A stretch of 64,000 nucleotides of DNA from Brachyspira hyodysenteriae ATCC 27164 (lineage in GTDB: Bacteria; Spirochaetota; Brachyspiria; Brachyspirales; Brachyspiraceae): contig NZ_CP015910.2 of NCBI RefSeq assembly GCF_001676785.2, positions 1,674,001 to 1,738,000 of the forward strand, given 5' to 3'. A program made the translations under genes and the position numbers. Below, piece by piece: positions 22,821-36,430 of this stretch. Each line of letters begins with the position of its first letter. Position 1 is the first letter of the stretch. Under the pieces are notes generated by a model. That model ran no database searches. It worked only from the letters and a program-made list of their open reading frames with translations, and had not been told where the DNA came from.

Positions 22821-23627
22821 ATGATAGAAAATTATTCACCTGTATCGTTGGCATTATTCGGAGGCGGTATTACTTTTGCATTCACAGCATTGGGATCTGC
22901 TCTTGTATTTTTCTTTATGTCAGAAATAAAACCTAAACTATTAGCAACTATGTACGGATTTGCTGCAGGAGTTATGACTGCGGCTAGTTTCTGGTCATTA
23001 CTTGCACCATCAATAGAATTATCAGAAAATACTAATCTTCCTAATTGGTTAATACCAGTAGCAGGATTTTTATTAGGAGCATTTTTTATATGGGTATTGG
23101 ATAAAGTAATGCCTCATATGCATATAGTAAACGGAAACGAAGAAACAGAAGGAGCTAAGGTTCAATTATCAAAAAGCATACTATTATTTTTAGCTATAAC
23201 ACTTCACAATATACCTGAAGGTTTAGCAGTAGGCGTAACATTCGGAGCTTTTTCTGTTGGTGACAGCGGAGTAACATTCAATGCTGCATTAGCATTAGCA
23301 CTTGGCATAGGTTTACAGAATTTCCCTGAAGGTGCTGCAGTTTCTCTTCCTCTAAAAACAACAGGGGTGTCAAAATTAAAATCTTTTTCACTTGGTGCAA
23401 TATCAGGAATAGTAGAGCCTATTGCTGCTGTTATAGGTGCTTTGGCTGTTACAAAGCTCACTGTTATACTTCCAATAGCTTTGGCATTTTCTGCCGGTGC
23501 TATGATGTATGTTGTTATAGAAGAACTTGTGCCTGAAGCTGTTGCTGAAGAACATAATCATTTCGGCGTATTCGGTTTTATATTTGGATTCGCTATAATG
23601 ATGGTTTTAGATGTGGCTTTAGGGTAA
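22821..23627 (+). CDS. ZIP family metal transporter
   Basis: An inner-membrane importer of divalent cations, usually zinc. The 268-residue protein has about eight hydrophobic helices and the two metal-site motifs HNIPEG (129-134) and QNFPEG (166-171). The loop after helix three is short and has only a few His (MPHMHIV). Membership is closest in look to the GufA-type bacterial ZIPs. AAAGG lies before the ATG. No regulator is adjacent. Confidence 0.92.
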   Translation: MIENYSPVSLALFGGGITFAFTALGSALVFFFMSEIKPKLLATMYGFAAGVMTAASFWSLLAPSIELSENTNLPNWLIPVAGFLLGAFFIWVLDKVMPHMHIVNGNEETEGAKVQLSKSILLFLAITLHNIPEGLAVGVTFGAFSVGDSGVTFNAALALALGIGLQNFPEGAAVSLPLKTTGVSKLKSFSLGAISGIVEPIAAVIGALAVTKLTVILPIALAFSAGAMMYVVIEELVPEAVAEEHNHFGVFGFIFGFAIMMVLDVALG

Positions 23628-23644
23628 TTAAATATAATTTATAA

Positions 23645-26600
23645 TTATATTTTACTTTTTAATTCCTCTAATATACTTAACATAGCTTTTTTATCTTTAT
23701 ATAATAAAGTTTTGTCATAAGGGTGAAAAATTATATCTTTTTCATCTGTAGACATATTTTTATACATATCCAATTCTTTTATTGGAAAACTACATAAAAT
23801 TGGAAGACCTTTTATATTCTCAATTTTTATTGAGCCAGAATCTGTATTTTTTATTTCATTATTAATTTCTATAATTAATCTTAATTCATTTTCAAATTTA
23901 AAATCATTCCTTTTATCAAAAAAATCCCACACATTTTCATTTTTACTTTTTATTTTTTCTTTATCCATATAGTATAATGAACCTAAATATATTTCTACAT
24001 TATGATTATACAATATAGACATAATACTTTTTATAAAATCTTTAATATCTATAGTCATTCTAAATTTTGTTTTACTGCCATAAATCTTCCACCATGCATA
24101 AGCATTTTCATTACCTATACTATAACTAAAACAAGAAATATAAAGTTTATTCTTTATATCATATTGATTTTCATTGTCATCTTCAAATAAATAAGGATGC
24201 GACATTGTGATACATCTATTTTCAATATCTTTTACCAAATGTTCAAATTCCAATATTCTTGATATTTTAGCCGTTTTATTAAATCTATTATTCAAATTTT
24301 GAAGAAGTTTTTCTAAATTATCATATGATGTTTTATCACCATGTTTATTTTCTATAAAGTATATTGATAAAGATTTATCCTTATATATTTTTATCGGTGA
24401 TATCAACAAAGTTTTTTTATATATTAATCTTTTTTCTAAATTTTTTAAAAATTCTTTTTCATCTTCTGTTTTAGGCTCTAATTCTGTAACTTTTAATAAA
24501 TTATCATATACTTGCTCATCAAAATAATAATCAGTTTTAATTATTTTATCTATTATATATTCAATAATAACTCTTAATTCAAATACAAGATAATAACTAC
24601 CACATTCAGGATATTCTATTTTTTTATCAAGTTTATCATATATTTGATTTATTACATATGTAACTTTAATAAAAGAATTTTTATACTTTTCTATATTATC
24701 AAATATGTAATCTAAATTTTTTATGGCTTCTTCTTGAACATTATAATCATTGGTTATAAAATTACAAAAATATTTAAAAATTTCATTATTTTTATCTATA
24801 AAAATTAATAATGATGCTATATTATCATGTTCATAATATAATACTTCTTTATTTACTGTTCCTTCTAATTTTATATTAATATCATTACTAATATCAGTTA
24901 ATAGTTTAAACTGCTCATTTGTATCTTTTATACTCATCATATCATTTATTTTTTTTATTAATTCATCACAATATTTTTTTAAATTATAACTATTATTGAT
25001 ATTGTTATGTTCTGTAATTTTTATTTCTTTTTTTCTTATTTTTTCTCTAATTTCATATATTATATCTAATAAATCTTTATTATATAAATTATCAAATATT
25101 ATACTATCCTGCCATTGTGAAATTATATTATAATGACATATTCCTATAAAATTAGAATTAAGTATTAATTTTAATAAATCATTCATCAAATCTAATTTTA
25201 TAACACTATCTATTAATAAAGTTGATATATGTGTTATACCATTATTTGATTTATCTAATGTAGCTTTAAAATATTCTAAAATTATTTCTTTTATTTTGTC
25301 TGTATACTTAATTTTATTATCTACAGAATTATATAAATTAATAGTAGATACAAGAAAATAATATTTATATGATGGAAAATTAATAGCATTTTCTATATCA
25401 ATATGTTTTATACATAAATCTAATAAATAATATTTATCTATATTTAATTTTTTTATTATTGAATTAAAATTAAAAGTTTCAAATTCTAAATCTACATAAC
25501 TAGGTCTTCCAACTGGATATTTTATCGAAATACGATCTGATATAAGAATTTGACAAGGACATTCCTTGATAAAATAATAAGGATAACTTAATAGTTCTAT
25601 AATAGATTTATCATCAATAAATCTTTTTAAATCAATGTCAAATCCAAATACTTTTTCTAAATGTAAAAGTATATATTTAGGAAATTGTATATTAATATTC
25701 TTAAAATAGTTTCTTATTATTTCTTTTTCTTCATTAGAAAAATTATAATCATATTTTCTTATTGCTATTAAATAATTATATAAATGCAATATATAAAAAT
25801 TATTCCAATTATCTATCAAATATTTATAAACAATATTAAGATCAACTTCTTCTTGATAGAGAAAATCAAAATTAAATATTTCGTATATATAAAAGATACA
25901 AAATGGATTAAAAATAGGTATACTAAAACTATCATCTATAATCTTATTTTTATCATCAAATGATAAATATTCATATTTATTATTTAATTTATAAAAATCC
26001 ATTTCAGTAATAATACATTTATTATCAAATTGTTTTAATATAAATCCAATATCTTCTTTAATAGCTTCAAAATTGAAAAATTTTTTTATACAATTTATTT
26101 TTTCATTTTCTTTATCTTCTTTATACTTTTCTATTTTATACCTTAACTTTTGTAATTTTTCTATATTTTCTTGTTTTACTTTTAAAATATTATTAATTTC
26201 TTCATCATCTTCTTTTATATTATAAATTGGATCATCACTAGAAAGTATTAGACTAATTCTATATTTTTTTACTTTTTTTGAGCATTTATCATATTTTTCC
26301 TGAGAATCTATATAATTTATAATTATTTGAGAATATAGAAAACTATCTTCTCCTTCGTAAACTTCAAATATGTCAATAATATAATTAGAAATGGTCTTTT
26401 TTAATTTTGATAAATCTATTTCCTCATCTTCTATCTTTAATTTAAAATCTGTGTTTATCAAATGAAAGGCAATATATTTAAATAAAAAATCTTTTTGTTT
26501 TGGTTCTAATTTTTCAATACAGCCTTTTTGATGAATTTTTTTTATAAGCATAAATTGAATGAATAAATAATATGAATAATTATTTGATAAAATATCTTTT

Positions 26601-26926
26601 AACCAATTTGGAAAAGTATAAGAAAATATTTTTATTTCAAAATCTATATCATTTATTTTATCTAAAATATTTAATATTAATTTTATAGAAATAACAGAGT
26701 CAATATCATAATTATTAATGTTTCTATTAAAATTAGATAATATAAATAATATAATATCTTTATTTACATTATCGATATTTTCTTCTTTTTTCAGAAGAAA
26801 TCCTATTTGTTTTGATAATTCCAATACTAATTTATTACCTATATTTTTTGTTTGGTCTATGAAATAGATTATTTTATATAAATTATCTTCTATATAAGAT
26901 ATATTTATATCAATATACTTAATCAT
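23645..26926 (-). CDS. Large protein of unknown function with DUF2971-like C-terminus
   Basis: A 1093-residue protein extremely rich in Ile, Asn, Lys and Tyr, with no signal peptide or convincing membrane helix. Residues 1-880 look all-helical, like an extended repeat scaffold, but I find no named domain. Residues ~887-1093 resemble DUF2971: an ITMSHPYLFEDD segment, a CFSYS strand, an AYAWWKIYG motif (about 943-951), and a FENELRLI motif (about 1011-1018). The start overlaps the stop of the upstream gene by ATGA, indicating translational coupling. Its composition is even more AT-skewed than its neighbours. Role unknown; a defence-type role is only inference. Confidence 0.75.
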   Translation of the reverse strand: MIKYIDINISYIEDNLYKIIYFIDQTKNIGNKLVLELSKQIGFLLKKEENIDNVNKDIILFILSNFNRNINNYDIDSVISIKLILNILDKINDIDFEIKIFSYTFPNWLKDILSNNYSYYLFIQFMLIKKIHQKGCIEKLEPKQKDFLFKYIAFHLINTDFKLKIEDEEIDLSKLKKTISNYIIDIFEVYEGEDSFLYSQIIINYIDSQEKYDKCSKKVKKYRISLILSSDDPIYNIKEDDEEINNILKVKQENIEKLQKLRYKIEKYKEDKENEKINCIKKFFNFEAIKEDIGFILKQFDNKCIITEMDFYKLNNKYEYLSFDDKNKIIDDSFSIPIFNPFCIFYIYEIFNFDFLYQEEVDLNIVYKYLIDNWNNFYILHLYNYLIAIRKYDYNFSNEEKEIIRNYFKNINIQFPKYILLHLEKVFGFDIDLKRFIDDKSIIELLSYPYYFIKECPCQILISDRISIKYPVGRPSYVDLEFETFNFNSIIKKLNIDKYYLLDLCIKHIDIENAINFPSYKYYFLVSTINLYNSVDNKIKYTDKIKEIILEYFKATLDKSNNGITHISTLLIDSVIKLDLMNDLLKLILNSNFIGICHYNIISQWQDSIIFDNLYNKDLLDIIYEIREKIRKKEIKITEHNNINNSYNLKKYCDELIKKINDMMSIKDTNEQFKLLTDISNDINIKLEGTVNKEVLYYEHDNIASLLIFIDKNNEIFKYFCNFITNDYNVQEEAIKNLDYIFDNIEKYKNSFIKVTYVINQIYDKLDKKIEYPECGSYYLVFELRVIIEYIIDKIIKTDYYFDEQVYDNLLKVTELEPKTEDEKEFLKNLEKRLIYKKTLLISPIKIYKDKSLSIYFIENKHGDKTSYDNLEKLLQNLNNRFNKTAKISRILEFEHLVKDIENRCITMSHPYLFEDDNENQYDIKNKLYISCFSYSIGNENAYAWWKIYGSKTKFRMTIDIKDFIKSIMSILYNHNVEIYLGSLYYMDKEKIKSKNENVWDFFDKRNDFKFENELRLIIEINNEIKNTDSGSIKIENIKGLPILCSFPIKELDMYKNMSTDEKDIIFHPYDKTLLYKDKKAMLSILEELKSKI

Positions 26927-27396
26927 ATATATAGATGATTGTATTTTTTTTCATCCTCTTTAGTATGATTAGATTCCAACATATTTAGTATTGCCAATAA
27001 TGAATTATTTACATATTCTATGATTTTGTTTTTATCTATATGTCTACTAACGCATACTATATAATCAAATAAATCAAAAATATCTTGTGAATCTATATTG
27101 TCTTTATCTAAAATATTTTTAATTTCTGATTCTAAACTATTTACAATTATATCTATTATATCATTAAAAAAGTTAGCTTCTGTAATAGTATCAGTTTTTC
27201 CATAATAGTATGTTGTAAAATATGGTAATTCTAATTTTTTTCTTAAATAAAAAAAATAATTGAATATCTCTTTCTTTTCTTTTTTTGAAAATGAGTCATC
27301 ATCTAAAATTAAAGTTTTTAAATAACAGGATACATTTGGATATTTAGACTCTAAAAATTCTTTTCTATTTATAAATTGTAAAACCTTATTTGTCAT
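26923..27396 (-). CDS. Small protein coupled to the DUF2971-like gene
   Basis: About 157 residues, helical, acidic-to-neutral, with no signal peptide. I recognise no domain. The ATG at 27396 is preferred: AAGG lies 7 nt upstream, while an in-frame TTG at 27402 is too close to it. The stop overlaps the start of the 1093-residue gene by 4 nt (ATGA), so the pair is a tight two-gene operon with matched odd composition and probably works as a unit. Confidence 0.7.
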   Translation of the reverse strand: MTNKVLQFINRKEFLESKYPNVSCYLKTLILDDDSFSKKEKKEIFNYFFYLRKKLELPYFTTYYYGKTDTITEANFFNDIIDIIVNSLESEIKNILDKDNIDSQDIFDLFDYIVCVSRHIDKNKIIEYVNNSLLAILNMLESNHTKEDEKKYNHLYI

Positions 27397-27610
27397 ATAC
27401 AACCTTATTTTTAATTATATGCTATCAAAATACCTTTAATTGCAGCTATAATAAATATTATAATTTTATCAATCTATTTAACATCAATTATATTATTATA
27501 TTCTATAAAAAATGTCAGTAATTTTTTAATAAAAACAAATAATTTATTAAGTATTTTAAATTAACAAAAAATATTATATAATAATTGCAAATAAATTCTA
27601 AAGGTTAATA

Positions 27611-28537
27611 ATGATTGTTTATATAATATTTGCTATAATAGCTGTAATTGTACTATCATTGATAATAATAGCTAATCACTTTGTTAATAAACTTCTAATA
27701 AAAACAAATAAAAAACTATTTGAAAGAAAAGAAAGCAGTAAGGAAGAAAGCGAAGAAAAAAAACGTATAAAAGAACAAAGAAGAATATGGTTTGAAAGCT
27801 CTCAAAAAGATGTTTATACAACTTCAAGCGATAATTTAAAATTGCATGCTCATCTTATAAATAATAACAGCAATGTATATGTTATAATAGTTCACCCATA
27901 TGAAGCAAGAGGCTCTTATATGAAATATTTTATAGAAAAGTTTTATAATATTGGATTTAATATACTAGCAATAGATTTAAGAACTCATGGAGAAAGCGAA
28001 GGAAAAATATATTCTTTGGGATATTTAGAGAGATTAGATGTACTTGCTTGGATAAAATATATAAATGATAATTATAATAATAGTCAAATAATTCTTTACG
28101 GAATTTCCATGGGAGCAAATGCTGTTATGATGTGCTGTAATGAGGATAACACAAATAATGTAAAGGCAATAATAGAAGATGCTGGATTTACAAATGCTTA
28201 TGAGCAATTAAAAAGAAGATTAGATATGGCATATAAATTTTCTTTTCTTCCAATAGTTGAAGCAACATCATTAATGGCAAAAATAAGATTAGGTTTTTCA
28301 TTCAAATATATTGATGTAAAAAAAAGAGTGGCAATGTCAAAAATACCTATTCTTTTTATACATGGTGATAAAGATGAGCTTGTAGATTATAATATGGTTA
28401 ATAAACTTTATGATGCATGTTCATCTGAAAAAGAAAAACTCATTATAAAAGATGGTCATCATATATCTGCTGTTTTCAGTAATGAAAATTTATATTGGAA
28501 TACAATAAAAAATTTTATAAGTAAATATATTAGTTAA
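27611..28537 (+). CDS. Membrane-anchored alpha/beta hydrolase
   Basis: A 308-residue protein with one N-terminal transmembrane helix (1-28), a charged linker (35-60) and an alpha/beta hydrolase domain. The nucleophile elbow is GISMGA with Ser166. The acid is probably the Asp in HGDKDELV, and the His lies in KDGHH. The HGESEG segment after strand four is typical of the serine-peptidase/esterase-like group. AAGG precedes the ATG. Substrate unknown. Confidence 0.85.
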   Translation: MIVYIIFAIIAVIVLSLIIIANHFVNKLLIKTNKKLFERKESSKEESEEKKRIKEQRRIWFESSQKDVYTTSSDNLKLHAHLINNNSNVYVIIVHPYEARGSYMKYFIEKFYNIGFNILAIDLRTHGESEGKIYSLGYLERLDVLAWIKYINDNYNNSQIILYGISMGANAVMMCCNEDNTNNVKAIIEDAGFTNAYEQLKRRLDMAYKFSFLPIVEATSLMAKIRLGFSFKYIDVKKRVAMSKIPILFIHGDKDELVDYNMVNKLYDACSSEKEKLIIKDGHHISAVFSNENLYWNTIKNFISKYIS

Positions 28538-29431: not shown

Positions 29432-32400
29432 TTATTTATCAACATAATCTCTAGGTATACCAGGAAGTATATAATCAAATAAAGCATAATTAGCCATATA
29501 TAAAGTATCTCTGTCATTTGGATTTATAGTATTAACAGGAACTCTATATGTTTTTATATATCTGTATGAATCAATTATACCTTTATCAAAATTATTATAT
29601 AAATACTTCATCACAGTATAGTAATCACCTGAAGAATTAGTAGTATATGTGAATAAAAGCTTAGTATCATTTCTAGCTTTTAAATATCTGTTTATATCAT
29701 TATTTCTAGCCGGAGATAAGAAAATATCCATATCATCATAAGGCTTATCTCTGTTCGTATCTATTCCTATATAATGCATCAAAGGTATTTTTCCATTGGC
29801 ATTATCAAATGATTTTACAGCCAAACTTTCTAATGATGTATAGAAGTTAGTTTCTGTATTAAGTTTTATAGAAGGCTTACCAACATCTAAAATAGAAGAA
29901 GGAGAATATTGGAACTCTCTTATTTTTATAACATCATTATTCTGGAATGCTTCCAAATATGCAAAAGGAACAGTAAATAAATTAGCAGCAGAACCTGTTA
30001 TATATATTTTTTCAACTCTTTCTGCATCTTTAATTATATCAGATGAAAGCATAGCACTTTGAATAGATTTTAATGAATTTCTTCTATCCCTTGGTTTTGC
30101 TACATTTGTAAAGCTATTCAAATATGTATTAAGTTTTTCTCTATCTATCAAAACAGCTTTTTTTACTTCGCTGTCTCCTATAACATAACTATAAGCTGCA
30201 TATTTATTATCCTCATAAGCATAGAATATAAACATAGTATTAGTATTTTCATTTGAGAATATTTCATAAGCATCTTTTATATTATTATCAAAATTACTTT
30301 CAGGTACACGTATCTTATTTAATAATCCATATATATAAGCTGAATTAGTTTTGTATAATGAATAGAATCTATTTGCAAAAGATGCCACAGTTTCCGCTTC
30401 AAATATATATTGATTTCCATAAATATAATTCATAGTTGTGAATATATCATTTTCATTAGTTGCATCTGTATTCATTATAGTATTTGCAACAGTCAATACT
30501 TCGTTTGTATTTTGCATTCTATTTAAGAAATTAGTTACTGTATCAATAGGAGTATTAGCATATATTAAATCATAAAGAACAGCAACTTCTAAAATTTTAT
30601 CTTTATTTTCTCCGTCTACTCTAGTTGCAATATAATTCAAATATCTTACAGATTCTTTAGGATCATTTTTAGCTTTTAAGAATCTTGATAAAGTTCTAGG
30701 TGTAAAATACTCGTCTATAAGATCATAATTATTATTAGTATACAAATACATAAAATGCAATGCTCTATTAGCACCTTTAACTGCACCATCTTCTCCCATT
30801 CTTCTATATACAGGAAGCATAGATTTTATAAATCTGTAAGCATTAGAATCGCTTATATTAGTATATGAACTTGCAAAGAATTTATAACCTTCTTCAGAGA
30901 ATAAATATGCGGTATTTGTATCTTTAACTGCATATCTGTCTTCAACAATCCTAGCATAATTAAGCATCTTTTCATTATCACTCTGAGAATAAGCAATAAC
31001 ATTTGACATCATAGTTATGCTTGGAGAAGCACTTGAAGAATAAGAATTATAAAGTCTAGTTTTAAACTCATAAGCTGCATTTGATAATGAAGATACACTG
31101 TAATCAGGTTTTCCATATACAGTAAATATATTATTATCATAGCCTTTCATACTAACTTCCAGAGAATTAGAAGATAATTTCCTGAAATAATTAGTATAGA
31201 ACATTATTCTTGAATCTTTTCCGCCTTTTCCTACAACTAAAGCTATATTATTTATATCTCTTAAAACTCTTCTATTATTTGTGAATGTTTCATTATCGCA
31301 ATAAACTATATATAGATTCTTTTTCATTATGTTAGATATATCAGAAGCACTCGCACCTGTTATATCTGTAACTAATGGAACATAAGAATTAGTAGCTATA
31401 TCTTTTAATTCTATGAATCTAAAACTTCCTCTTCTTCTCCTATTTGTAGAAACTGTATTTGTAGAAGTCATATTTGTAGACATATCATTTGAATACATAT
31501 TATTAGTTTCTTCAGGATTATAGGAAACATTCATATATAAATTTCTATTATCAAAATTATTTAATTCATTATCTTCTGGCAAATTATTATAACTATAAAC
31601 ATTATTAGTAACATTAGTATTGCTTGCCATAGTCATACCGCTGTTTATTTCTTTCTCAGCATTTCTAGTAGTTCTGAAGAATGCTATTAATTTACTATCT
31701 ATATAAGCAGTTTTTGCAGGAAGCATATATTCTGTTGAATCATATAATTCTCTTACAAATATATTTCTATTGCTTATAACAATAGGTCTAAATCCTATAT
31801 GAGTAACATAGTTTTTAGTTTTAGGCATAGAATTAGTCTGCATATAGAATGAAGTTCTTCCATTTTCTCTAACAAATCTATATCCTAAATAAGTATCCCA
31901 AATAAGAGTTTCATCTTTACGCATAGATTTATCAATATCTTCAGCTTTAACATCACATATAACTATAGGCTCTATAGGAGTATTAGAGAATTTATCTATT
32001 GCCTCCTTTTCGTAAGTAGATATTTGCTTAAGCATAGCAGATTCCATTTTACTGTCATAAGGAGTATCTACAGCATTCAAATACATCTGATATGAATATA
32101 AAGCCTTTTCATAAAGTTTGTAATATTCTCTAAGATAATAATTGTTCTCACCCAAAGTATAAAGTCTCTTATCTAAGAATTTCCTTCTCATATCAATGGC
32201 ATCAAACATGGCAAGTATATTAATGCTGGCATCAGGATAACTGTCTTTCAAAAACTCTATAACTTTATATTTAGCTTGTCTTAATATAAAGTTATTATCC
32301 TCTACAAATGTTATCATGAATACGCTTTCTCTCAATCTTTTAAGTATTCTAAATACATACTGCACAGGATAATCCAAACTATCCGGATATCTGTTTCTAT

Positions 32401-35400
32401 ACTTAGAACTGAAATCAATCAAAGTAGTAAGTATTGCAATTTCTTCAACGGCAAAAGCAGAAGTCTGTGCCTTTGAGAATGCTGACATATATTCTCTAGC
32501 TGCCTCTTCTATATATCCAGCTAATTCATAAGCTTTAGCCAAATTATATCTTATAATAATTTCTGTTTTCAAATCCACAGGGAAATTAGAGTTAGATGAT
32601 AAAATATATTTATACCTATCTATAGCATCTTTAAGCATAGATAATCTTTGTACATTAACATCATGATCTCTCATATCTGTAGGATCATCTGATTGTTTTT
32701 TTCTATAATTGACACTGTTATCTGCTGTAAGTTTGAAAGCCATAATATAATTGAAAGCAGCTATATGAGAATATAATAATAATCTGTCTTTTGTGCTTAC
32801 AACATTATTTGTTGATAATATCTGAAGTGTTTTAGTAGTATTAAATAATTCTATAAAAAATTCTCTTCTAATAGAAGTTAAATCATTTTCTGATAAATAT
32901 CTTAAATATAAAGATGATAAACTTAAATAGTTTTTAGCATCGTTTTCAGCATTCTGATATTGAAGACTAGGATTATTAGCTAAAGTCTTTGCATCTAAAG
33001 TTTTCTGATATTCTTCTATTGATGTTTTAAAAGACATTATAGAATTTGACTGATCACCCTGTCTGTAATAAAGATATCCTTCATTATTGTAATATGTAGC
33101 AAGCATTAAAGGCTGAATAGATTTTTTAGGTTTATCTTGTATAATATAATTACGGTATGAAGATAAAGCTTCTCTAGCCTCAGAATATCTTCCCATTTTC
33201 TCATACAATTCCTGATATATAGAATATAACATCTGCTGTTTATCTACGTTTAAAGGCTCTCCAGGTATATATCCTCCGAAAGATGCAAGTCCTAAATTTA
33301 CAACGTTTATATTAGCACCATACAAAGTTATACTAACATAATTAGGAGTATAAACAGAAGAATCCAAACTATCTATTTGGGCTTTTACACTATCACAATA
33401 AGCTAAGGCATTATTATAATCTTCTAATTTTAAATAACATGCAGCAAGTAAAAGCTGATTAAGTTCATTTTTATTAACATCATCTTTTGTAAGTTTATCT
33501 CTTTCTAGTAAAGACTCTATAGCCTTTTCATAATCTTCTTGTTCTATAGCAGCAACTGAAGTATATCCAACTATTTTATATACACTTTCTTTATCACCTA
33601 ATTTCTCAAATAAAGCACGGGCTTTCTCATATTCGCTATAAGCTCCTTTTATATCATTGTTCATCCATAAAGAATAACCATAAAAGAAATGATACCAAGC
33701 CTTACTTTTATCTGATCCTACTTGATTTAAAAGACTTTCTGCTTCCTTATATTCATTAACTGCATCTGAATATCTTCCATTTATTAAATAAGAATTTGCA
33801 AGCATTATAGAAACTACATTAGGCTTAGTTCTTACTTTACTTTTTGCCATTATTAATGAATCTATAATTTCTGAATCCAAATTCTGAGTTTGGAATGCAA
33901 GCATATTATATCCCATATATTGACCATTAGTAATTGCATTATCTTTATAAGCCGGTACTAACTCTATTACACTTTTAGATGTTTTTTCATCTTGAAGAAC
34001 CTGCATTCTTAAAGCCTGAGCAAATGTTAACATCTCAGCCTTTTTCACATAATAATTCTCTTCATCAGGATATAAGAATATTGCAAAATTAATATATGAT
34101 ACAGCCTTTTCAACTATAGTATCAAAAGCCATATTCAAATATAGATAAAATCCGTCTTCTCTTTTTTTCTCACTTACAACATATCGTTCCGGACTATACT
34201 GTTTTGATACAGCTATACCATAATATCTATTAGCCAAGTAATAATAGGCATTAGCAAGTTCAGCATGTGCCTCATGAGAAGAATATCTAGTTGATAAAAT
34301 ATTTCTCTCTCTCTCTAATATAGTTTCTTCAAGGGATTCTATTGTACTGTATGCTCTAAGTCCGCTCTCTATAACTCTTGATGAAGAAGAAGTATCATTA
34401 GGATTATATTTTAAAGTTTCATTATAATTATCATAAGCAGCGGCATATTTACCCTCATTGTATGCTTTATCTGCCAAAGATTTATAATAATTAGCTAATG
34501 TATCTTTACAATACTGTGCCTCATAAGTAGAATCAAAATTTTTTCCGCCTGAACTCAATGCTTCTTTAAACAAAGCATAAGAGCCGTCATCTTTCTGAGC
34601 CATAAGTACTTTAGCATTAGCATAATAACCCAATGCAAGCATTATATCGTTTTTAGATTCAACATAAGGCTTAAATAAATTAGTAGCATCATCATAATTT
34701 CTAGAGAGTATAAGTCCGTCCAAATATATAAGTCTGGTAGCAACAGCTAAAGGAGCATAAGGATGTGCGTTTTCTATTATAGTATCATAAGAAATTTTTG
34801 AATCTCTTATAAAATCTTTTGCAATCTCTAATCTATCTGAAAATAATAAATCTCTTCTTTTATAAGGATTATTATAAATATCTTCATCTTCAGGATATTT
34901 GTATCCATTATCTTCAACTGAATGAGCATATAATTTAGCTATTGGAATATATAAGTCTTTATTAATATTTAAATTAATAATTTCACTAAGAATTGCAAAT
35001 GTATCTTTATTATTTTTATTAGCTTTATATTTTTCATTAGCAGATATATATCCTGTCCAAGCTATTAAATTAGTAATTTCCAAATCATTATTAGTAAGAA
35101 AATATTCATTTGTATATGATTCTATATCAAACCAATTATTATTAGTATCAAATTTTGTATCTATCTTTGATGTTAAAAATCCTGGAAATGTATCTAAATA
35201 TTCAGATGTTAATACTTTTTTGGCATTATTATATTCATTCATATTCTTATTAGTATATGATGAAACCATCATATTAAAATAAGCTTTGGCAACATTATTC
35301 TGATCTTCAGAAAAAGGGAAATATTCAGCAAATCTTTCTATAACATCAACTTTTCTATTATATGGAAGTTCTACAAAACTATTATACATAGCTGCTGAAC

Positions 35401-36430
35401 TATCATCTTTTATAAAATATTCCTTAGTGGATCCCATTGTAACTATACTTGTGCCATCTTCACTTACAACATAAGTTCCAACCAAAGCTGAAGGATAAGC
35501 TACATTAAAAGTTGTTAATTGAGTATCTTCTGATAAAACATAATATTGATGAGTCGCCAAAGAATAAGACATTAAACGTCTTTTATCATAATAAGTTAAA
35601 TTTCCATCTCTGTCAGAATCTTTTTCTATCTCAAAGAAAATAATAGTATCATCATTATAAAAAGTAGGATTAAACTTGAATGTTTCTGTATCTGTAAGTA
35701 TAGTTAAATTAGTTTCATTGTTTGTATTATGAGTTAAATCTAATATAGCTAATTGAGAATATTTATCTCCTATTTTAGAAGTTATGAATGCTATCTTTGT
35801 ATCATCAAAAGAAAATGTAGGAGAACTAGCTTCAATATCAGATAATTTTTGAACATCTTTACCATTAGGTTTTACAGCAAAAAGTTTCTTTATTCCTCCG
35901 TCCCTATCCGAAACAAAAGCTATAATATTACCTTTATGAGAAACCACAGGATCAGTATCATAACCCTTATAATCAGTAAGCCTTACAATACTTTGCTCTA
36001 AGTTTTCTAAATTATTTTTTGAAGTTCTTATCCCAAGATTATAAAGTTTATATAAATAAATATCTCCGAAAGCATCATCTCTAGTTGAAGAAAATACTAT
36101 ATATCTTGATTTATCATCAATAGAAACAGATGTATCTATTGCAGGACTTCTAGTTAATCTATAGGTTTCTAGTGTGTATGAATCTACGGCAAAAATATCA
36201 GTATTTCCGGCATTTTCTCTTGAATAATAAATCCAAGTACCTTCTCTATCAATAACAGCATCCAATGCCGGATTTACTTCTCCAGACGTTAAAGAATATC
36301 TTTTATATTCTCTTAAAAAAGGTCTGCTGCTAAATGCAGAATCAGAACTTTTCTGACTTGATGCACAAGCAAACAGAATAAAAGAAAATAAAATTAATAT
36401 TTTAAATTTCATATAACACTTTAATCTCAT
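29432..36430 (-). CDS. Giant lipoprotein: TolB-like PD40 propeller, TPR array, CHAT-like C-terminus
   Basis: A 2332-residue protein. The signal peptide ends in a lipobox FACASS, so a lipid anchor is predicted. Residues ~55-345 hold PD40/TolB-like blades (IYYSRENAGNTDIF, VFSSTRDDAFGDIY, AFVSDRDGG). Residues ~380-1550 are a long helical region with TPR units (for example KAYNEGKYAAAYDNYNETLK). A low-complexity Asn/Thr/Ser segment follows near 1620-1710. The C-terminal ~280 residues resemble a CHAT peptidase fold: IYITGSAANLFTVPFAYLEA (2142-2161), FQYSPSSIL, and MHYIG (His2219). The usual catalytic-Cys strand reads LLFTYTTNSSG with no Cys. An alternative start is the ATG at 36412. It follows the STAS gene. 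Confidence 0.8.
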   Translation of the reverse strand: MRLKCYMKFKILILFSFILFACASSQKSSDSAFSSRPFLREYKRYSLTSGEVNPALDAVIDREGTWIYYSRENAGNTDIFAVDSYTLETYRLTRSPAIDTSVSIDDKSRYIVFSSTRDDAFGDIYLYKLYNLGIRTSKNNLENLEQSIVRLTDYKGYDTDPVVSHKGNIIAFVSDRDGGIKKLFAVKPNGKDVQKLSDIEASSPTFSFDDTKIAFITSKIGDKYSQLAILDLTHNTNNETNLTILTDTETFKFNPTFYNDDTIIFFEIEKDSDRDGNLTYYDKRRLMSYSLATHQYYVLSEDTQLTTFNVAYPSALVGTYVVSEDGTSIVTMGSTKEYFIKDDSSAAMYNSFVELPYNRKVDVIERFAEYFPFSEDQNNVAKAYFNMMVSSYTNKNMNEYNNAKKVLTSEYLDTFPGFLTSKIDTKFDTNNNWFDIESYTNEYFLTNNDLEITNLIAWTGYISANEKYKANKNNKDTFAILSEIINLNINKDLYIPIAKLYAHSVEDNGYKYPEDEDIYNNPYKRRDLLFSDRLEIAKDFIRDSKISYDTIIENAHPYAPLAVATRLIYLDGLILSRNYDDATNLFKPYVESKNDIMLALGYYANAKVLMAQKDDGSYALFKEALSSGGKNFDSTYEAQYCKDTLANYYKSLADKAYNEGKYAAAYDNYNETLKYNPNDTSSSSRVIESGLRAYSTIESLEETILERERNILSTRYSSHEAHAELANAYYYLANRYYGIAVSKQYSPERYVVSEKKREDGFYLYLNMAFDTIVEKAVSYINFAIFLYPDEENYYVKKAEMLTFAQALRMQVLQDEKTSKSVIELVPAYKDNAITNGQYMGYNMLAFQTQNLDSEIIDSLIMAKSKVRTKPNVVSIMLANSYLINGRYSDAVNEYKEAESLLNQVGSDKSKAWYHFFYGYSLWMNNDIKGAYSEYEKARALFEKLGDKESVYKIVGYTSVAAIEQEDYEKAIESLLERDKLTKDDVNKNELNQLLLAACYLKLEDYNNALAYCDSVKAQIDSLDSSVYTPNYVSITLYGANINVVNLGLASFGGYIPGEPLNVDKQQMLYSIYQELYEKMGRYSEAREALSSYRNYIIQDKPKKSIQPLMLATYYNNEGYLYYRQGDQSNSIMSFKTSIEEYQKTLDAKTLANNPSLQYQNAENDAKNYLSLSSLYLRYLSENDLTSIRREFFIELFNTTKTLQILSTNNVVSTKDRLLLYSHIAAFNYIMAFKLTADNSVNYRKKQSDDPTDMRDHDVNVQRLSMLKDAIDRYKYILSSNSNFPVDLKTEIIIRYNLAKAYELAGYIEEAAREYMSAFSKAQTSAFAVEEIAILTTLIDFSSKYRNRYPDSLDYPVQYVFRILKRLRESVFMITFVEDNNFILRQAKYKVIEFLKDSYPDASINILAMFDAIDMRRKFLDKRLYTLGENNYYLREYYKLYEKALYSYQMYLNAVDTPYDSKMESAMLKQISTYEKEAIDKFSNTPIEPIVICDVKAEDIDKSMRKDETLIWDTYLGYRFVRENGRTSFYMQTNSMPKTKNYVTHIGFRPIVISNRNIFVRELYDSTEYMLPAKTAYIDSKLIAFFRTTRNAEKEINSGMTMASNTNVTNNVYSYNNLPEDNELNNFDNRNLYMNVSYNPEETNNMYSNDMSTNMTSTNTVSTNRRRRGSFRFIELKDIATNSYVPLVTDITGASASDISNIMKKNLYIVYCDNETFTNNRRVLRDINNIALVVGKGGKDSRIMFYTNYFRKLSSNSLEVSMKGYDNNIFTVYGKPDYSVSSLSNAAYEFKTRLYNSYSSSASPSITMMSNVIAYSQSDNEKMLNYARIVEDRYAVKDTNTAYLFSEEGYKFFASSYTNISDSNAYRFIKSMLPVYRRMGEDGAVKGANRALHFMYLYTNNNYDLIDEYFTPRTLSRFLKAKNDPKESVRYLNYIATRVDGENKDKILEVAVLYDLIYANTPIDTVTNFLNRMQNTNEVLTVANTIMNTDATNENDIFTTMNYIYGNQYIFEAETVASFANRFYSLYKTNSAYIYGLLNKIRVPESNFDNNIKDAYEIFSNENTNTMFIFYAYEDNKYAAYSYVIGDSEVKKAVLIDREKLNTYLNSFTNVAKPRDRRNSLKSIQSAMLSSDIIKDAERVEKIYITGSAANLFTVPFAYLEAFQNNDVIKIREFQYSPSSILDVGKPSIKLNTETNFYTSLESLAVKSFDNANGKIPLMHYIGIDTNRDKPYDDMDIFLSPARNNDINRYLKARNDTKLLFTYTTNSSGDYYTVMKYLYNNFDKGIIDSYRYIKTYRVPVNTINPNDRDTLYMANYALFDYILPGIPRDYVDK

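Follow-up and report, generated by a model that had tools for sequence, protein, structure and literature searches.

The two overlapping minus-strand open reading frames (ORFs) that lie between what we take, by sequence recognition, to be a ZIP-type transporter gene (22821-23627) and, on the same ground, presumably an alpha/beta hydrolase gene (27611-28537) are, judging by their homologues, one ancestral gene of ~1250 codons that a one-base frame change has split in the window, by which we mean the whole 64 kb stretch of DNA analyzed. This single gene is kin to DUF2971 proteins, is sporadically present, is found in prophage and defense-island contexts, and has been lost repeatedly. As a prophage carries one intact copy and others have known anti-phage systems as neighbors, we conclude that it is probably a phage-defense gene of a type missed by current catalogues. 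We lean towards a single-protein anti-phage system, in which a helical scaffold would serve as sensor and a DUF2971 domain with an ADP-ribosyltransferase (ART)-like fold as effector. The features are collected in Table 1.

Table 1. Features of the split gene and its insertion site, in window coordinates.
Feature	Position	Strand	Basis
N-terminal piece of split gene (157-aa ORF)	26923..27396	-	Homology to starts of longer homologues
Remainder of split gene (1093-aa ORF)	23645..26926	-	65% identity to intact prophage protein
A8 run with frame change	26944..26951	-	Sole non-multiple-of-three indel versus intact prophage copy
Predicted all-helical, alpha-solenoid-like scaffold; proposed sensor	24407..27396	-	AlphaFold2, class-level only
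Divergent DUF2971 domain, residues 885-1050 of 1093-aa ORF; proposed effector	23777..24274	-	Profile-profile comparison, model, Foldseek
Approximate strain-variable insert between ZIP (end 23627) and hydrolase (start 27611) genes	23645..27500	.	Comparison with other species

The first-pass annotation described a two-gene cassette with an ATGA overlap. Both ORFs are present at the coordinates it gave, on the minus strand, and they do overlap by ATGA (the small one starting at ATG 27396 or, alternatively, at TTG 27402 to give 159 aa), but both parts belong to one ORF in the homologues and the split comes down to one base. An intact prophage homologue, a 1257-aa ORF from IMG/VR (IMGVR_UViG_648028009_000001, L104:2923-6696), spans both window ORFs end to end, the small ORF being 90% identical to its residues 1-151 and the large one matching its residues 158-1257. 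At the same site in genome G025 (L008), a 288-aa ORF joins the small protein in frame to the beginning of the large one, and the small ORF is 91% identical to the start of this joint ORF. In G001, a 512-aa ORF begins with a counterpart of the small ORF (44% identity) and extends into the part that corresponds to the large protein. The gene is likewise a single ORF in more remote intact relatives, with 1244 aa at a second locus in G025 and 1203 aa in an uncultured Brevinema metagenome-assembled genome (MAG); the small ORF is 22% identical (E=1e-4) to residues 1-117 of the latter. Against the intact prophage copy, 12 indels in the window gene have lengths divisible by three, and the only other one is a single-base difference within the A8 run; the other frame, read on from this run, gives KKIQSSIYMIKYIDINI, which is homologous to EEKIKSSIAMLNDIDINI of G025. 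No Shine-Dalgarno-like sequence was found before ATG 26926. Taken together, the fused homologues, the single-base difference and the lack of a ribosome-binding site indicate that the ATGA overlap is a by-product of the frame change. The small partner and toxin-like architecture also suggested earlier is unsupported, since the small ORF encodes the N-terminal end of one and the same protein. A genuine cassette, with a large toxin or sensor and a small protein as its partner, would fit the overlap, the common base composition and the absence of stops within either ORF, but such an arrangement, whether toxin-antitoxin or effector-partner, is extremely improbable and we reject it: all homologues that are more intact have the two pieces joined, the frames of the window pieces lie one base apart at the A8 run, homologous sequence continues past it in the other frame, and the second ATG has no ribosome-binding site. 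What looks like an ATGA-overlapping gene pair is thus a trap, being in reality one frameshifted gene.

The window copy has one lesion only in ~1250 codons. With all other indels in frame, any loss of function in this copy would be recent. The split in the A8 run may reflect a recent mutation, a homopolymer sequencing or assembly error, phase variation or slippage, so that the strain has either lost the function recently, makes a little full-length protein by slippage, or merely carries an assembly error; the best reading is a copy that is recently broken or slippage-dependent. That the gene is dead in this strain, a former defense gene in decay with no present function, is a serious contender to which we give slightly less than even weight. 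In addition to the frame change in the window, the G025 copy at this site is interrupted by frame breaks and a stop, the G001 copy has one frame break, and G014 retains only a scar. The single lesion and the frame-keeping nature of every other indel argue against decay, as does the chance that the A8 run is slipped in transcription or translation or is a sequencing error, and decay would in any case bear on the window copy and not on the family. The G013 copy has an ORF of 1002 aa, from which, compared with the intact relative P0003, a segment is deleted in frame.

The distribution of the family points to a gene that comes and goes. Presence and absence across the genus, raised in the first-pass annotation, fall out in its favor: the gene is found in 4 of 26 genomes of the genus, which we take to be Brachyspira, and is not universal, and its composition is not normal, with 17.8% GC in the split-gene stretch against a mean of 27.4% and a minimum of 23.1% over 1055 segments of equal length elsewhere in the 64 kb. 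Every copy from the genus has 17-18% GC. In our phylum sample, one Brevinema MAG also carries the family. The ZIP and hydrolase genes are close together in the genomes of 11 other species, separated by tens of bases to ~150 bases. One of these, G014, retains a remnant of the gene's 3' end (a 149-base match at 90%, flank included), which implies that the gene was formerly at this site and was then deleted; the other ten show no visible trace of it. As a permissive nucleotide search for remnants was swamped by AT-rich noise, we used only this 149-base match and matches to plain flanking sequence. The same site holds a transporter/regulator cassette in G024 and an unrelated 600-aa gene in G021 (L068:2489-4291(-)), whose product has membrane helices at its C-terminus and matches nothing in Pfam or PADLOC, and which lies in the same orientation.

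Synonymous divergence between the window and G025 same-site copies is 0.24, within the range of neighboring genes (0.20-0.36), and both copies have therefore occupied the site from the time they diverged or soon afterwards. The dN/dS ratio for this pair is 0.48 (neighbors 0.03-0.11), falling to ~0.3 at both ends of the gene and rising to 0.7-0.9 in the middle. Stronger selection at the ends than in the middle is as expected for a variable sensor region; alternatively, a ratio near 0.5 could reflect relaxed selection in a decaying gene. The best explanation of the history is that the gene moves with prophages and defense islands and is often lost or broken. Neither a plasmid nor a sequenced-phage origin is supported, P0003 and P0009 having no match in PLSDB and P0001 none in the phage collection. 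A match in G340 was set aside as likely composition-driven.

The C-terminal domain had been called DUF2971-like from its motifs, and profile methods bear this out. In a direct hmmscan, no Pfam model credibly matches the window protein, and the intact relative P0003 aligns to PF11185 with E=0.08 over model positions 1-89 of 89; at 14.7 bits, this is below the Pfam gathering cut-off of 22, which makes it a distant relative of PF11185 and not a listed member. A bridging protein in G017 reaches E=7.5e-4 against the same model, and the profile of the window family matches a broad DUF2971 profile with E=1.1e-10 and probability 97 (hhalign), making the domain homologous to the C-terminal domain of DUF2971 proteins, including the TPR-DUF2971 fusions of the genus. 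Its core motifs SHPYxFED, ISCFS, YAWWKIYG and FENELR occupy the DUF2971 positions FNDP, CLTT, MWSHYA and YENEYR, and the E-x-E-x-R strand is invariant in 15 sequences. DUF2971 proteins occur in 12 of 26 genomes of the genus, and the domain in 37 of 247 sampled from the phylum. Two recognizable ones are encoded in the window's own genome (G000:C1:2841588 and 2187837), of which one has TPR repeats and an open frame of 879 residues.

No credible solved relative was found by sequence, and the fold was approached by modeling. The model of the C-terminal 244 residues (pLDDT 79, pTM 0.81) has DarT structures as its six best Foldseek matches in the PDB, although with weak statistics (best E=0.012, prob 0.89, TM 0.37-0.42, with no match below E=0.001), and other ART enzymes appear lower in the list. 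Viral matches, all of them weak, include a putative RNA 2'-phosphotransferase and phage RNA polymerase ADP-ribosyltransferases. When the broad DUF2971 profile is compared with DarT profiles by hhalign, the LYHYT-type first strands of the two are aligned with a score of 18-20, above the maximum of 16.8 from controls comprising five decoy families and 30 column-shuffled profiles; at E 0.05-0.08, however, direct homology by profile is not significant. For the window family, the score in this comparison is no higher than that of the decoys. DarT-like proteins usually have a histidine in their first strand, which is not at the matching place in the window family. Because DarT tops the controls with only a modest E-value and the window family does not exceed the decoys, we regard the ART assignment as probable for DUF2971 in general and are less sure of it for the window family. 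A defense gene whose DUF2971 domain is not ART-like and has some other chemistry, such as that of a nuclease, is a possibility we consider the lesser one; the weak fold statistics and the non-significant alignment with DarT favor it, but the six best PDB matches are all to DarT with other ARTs recurring below, a YHYT-like first strand is common among broad DUF2971 members, and the E-x-E-x-R strand is invariant.

Upstream of this domain, AlphaFold2 predicts nearly all helices up to residue ~840 of the 1093-aa ORF, modeled without the 157-aa piece (mean pLDDT 64, pTM 0.36). This low-confidence helical model agrees with the sensor-like scaffold ending in a DUF2971-type domain that had been proposed from sequence. 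Foldseek returns only generic HEAT/karyopherin-type solenoids, which do not identify the scaffold further. Models in Pfam, NCBIfam and PADLOC give no credible match in the product of either window ORF, and we discarded STAND/AAA and other known sensor domains for want of a match in these three collections. In the mechanism that we propose, the N-terminal scaffold (~1000 residues including the N-terminal piece) would recognize an infection cue, upon which the C-terminal DUF2971 domain, with its putative ART-like fold, would serve as effector and stop infection, either by modification of a target in phage or host or by consumption of NAD. We infer the sensor role from the length of the scaffold and its fast-changing middle region, and ADP-ribosyl transfer or NAD consumption by the effector is likewise conjectural.

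In the strain studied here, slippage at the A8 run might yield a full-length protein and could serve as an on/off switch; it would be either a minus-one ribosomal slip on A AAA AAA or slippage of RNA polymerase. Such a heptamer does occur within the run in the frame of the small ORF, at codon 149, the minus-one frame runs without a stop into the large ORF, and both ORFs are intact apart from the split. Even so, we judge such slippage unlikely: the A8 run is not conserved, relatives having none at that place, and with heptamers of this type at seven places in this AT-rich gene, chance suffices to put one at the right spot.

The case for defense comes from the genomic neighborhoods of the relatives. 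The G013 copy adjoins Gabija (GajA, 2e-48, and GajB, 1e-162). Around the G001 copy are a type IIG restriction-methylase (6e-141), an RT-Toprim defense gene (3e-149), an AAA_13 protein (PDC-S06, 7e-31), a type I specificity subunit (HsdS) and a nucleotidyltransferase pair, while the Brevinema copy is immediately preceded by genes for a type IIG enzyme (2e-76) and for a PLD-SNF2 helicase (1e-41). The bridging DUF2971 protein of G017 is encoded between HsdM and HsdS genes. The 1257-aa prophage copy sits between integrase and terminase, in an interval that holds other cargo in ten sister prophages, including IetS (3e-204), ABC-3C/Lamassu-like systems (PDC-M68B 3e-85, LmuA-like, CTD10), PDC-M30A/B (6e-103, 2e-114), and DUF2326, DUF3800 and MORC-like ATPases. 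Matches to its terminase place this prophage family in 16 of the 26 genomes from the genus, at 91-99% identity in most full-length cases. The G001, G013, Brevinema and prophage copies are thus all in defense islands or mobile cargo sites. The one exception among intact copies, which counts against the defense reading, is the second G025 locus, where the 1244-aa ORF lies amid housekeeping genes. A prophage cargo gene with a different role, for instance in host interaction, would suit the position amid prophage genes, but it is quite unlikely in light of the chromosomal copies in defense islands, the recognized defense systems at the same site in sister prophages, and a protein in which no signal peptide or membrane segment is apparent by eye. 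The phage-defense role guessed at in the first-pass annotation thereby gains ground from relatives in a prophage cargo hotspot and in defense islands and from the match of DUF2971 proteins to PDC-S31.

PDC-S31 is a single-gene phage-defense candidate in PADLOC, and its models, those matched being 208-273 positions long, are hit by DUF2971 proteins of the genus and phylum with E-values down to 1.8e-37. The same models have no match to P0003, P0008, the Brevinema protein or the window pair. The window family resembles the TPR-DUF2971 proteins in having a helical N-terminal part, a C-terminal DUF2971 domain and a patchy distribution; it differs in its ~1000-residue scaffold without recognizable TPRs, and its domain, unlike that of listed DUF2971 proteins, is too divergent for Pfam to report. 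DarT, the toxin of DarTG, offers the nearest solved fold, and the modeled domain may resemble it in strand order and in having a conserved Glu late in the core. The family has no detectable sequence homology to that toxin and lacks the first-strand His at the matching place, and, unlike in DarTG, no DarG-like partner is seen. The fixed integrase-terminase site with its exchangeable defense cargo is like other hotspots that carry single large sensor-effector proteins.

In the literature searched, which covered the domain and the defense candidates, we found no description of the long family and no mention of PF11185 or PDC-S31; DUF2971 is mentioned in one paper, an unrelated genome reannotation (PMC5552945), and other PDC genes are described as candidates (PMC11514479). 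Since the link of DUF2971 to defense is already catalogued as a candidate through PDC-S31, what we add to that link is the long domain architecture, the cargo site in prophages and a putative fold of the ART type. If our reading is true, DUF2971 gains a biochemical hypothesis as an ART-like effector, the long family missed by Pfam and PADLOC becomes a defense candidate, and the integrase-terminase site of this prophage family becomes a source of more spirochete defense genes. More tentatively, and with some doubt, DUF2971 may be a new branch of the ART superfamily and a widespread defense effector, of which the window family would be a large, sensor-fused, prophage-borne one-protein form whose ~1000-residue solenoid would sense phage and trigger ADP-ribosylation.

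Several further observations concern the surroundings of these genes. The L104 and L115-L124 intervals form a cargo hotspot that holds several large proteins with no match alongside several recognized defense systems. Beside the intact prophage copy, L104:829-2394(-) encodes a 521-aa protein with no Pfam, PADLOC or PHROG match that is possibly a second cargo gene. The window's own genome has a prophage of the same family (G000:C1:1854311-1866500, L116), in whose cargo interval there is an ORF resembling a C5 cytosine methyltransferase fragment. DUF2971 proteins lie directly beside ORFs resembling restriction-methylase genes in L019 and L027, and the HsdM-DUF2971-HsdS arrangement is seen in L033/L040. 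Finally, 29432-36430(-) of the window encodes a 2332-aa putative lipoprotein in which TolB-like and TPR-like sequence can be recognized by eye.
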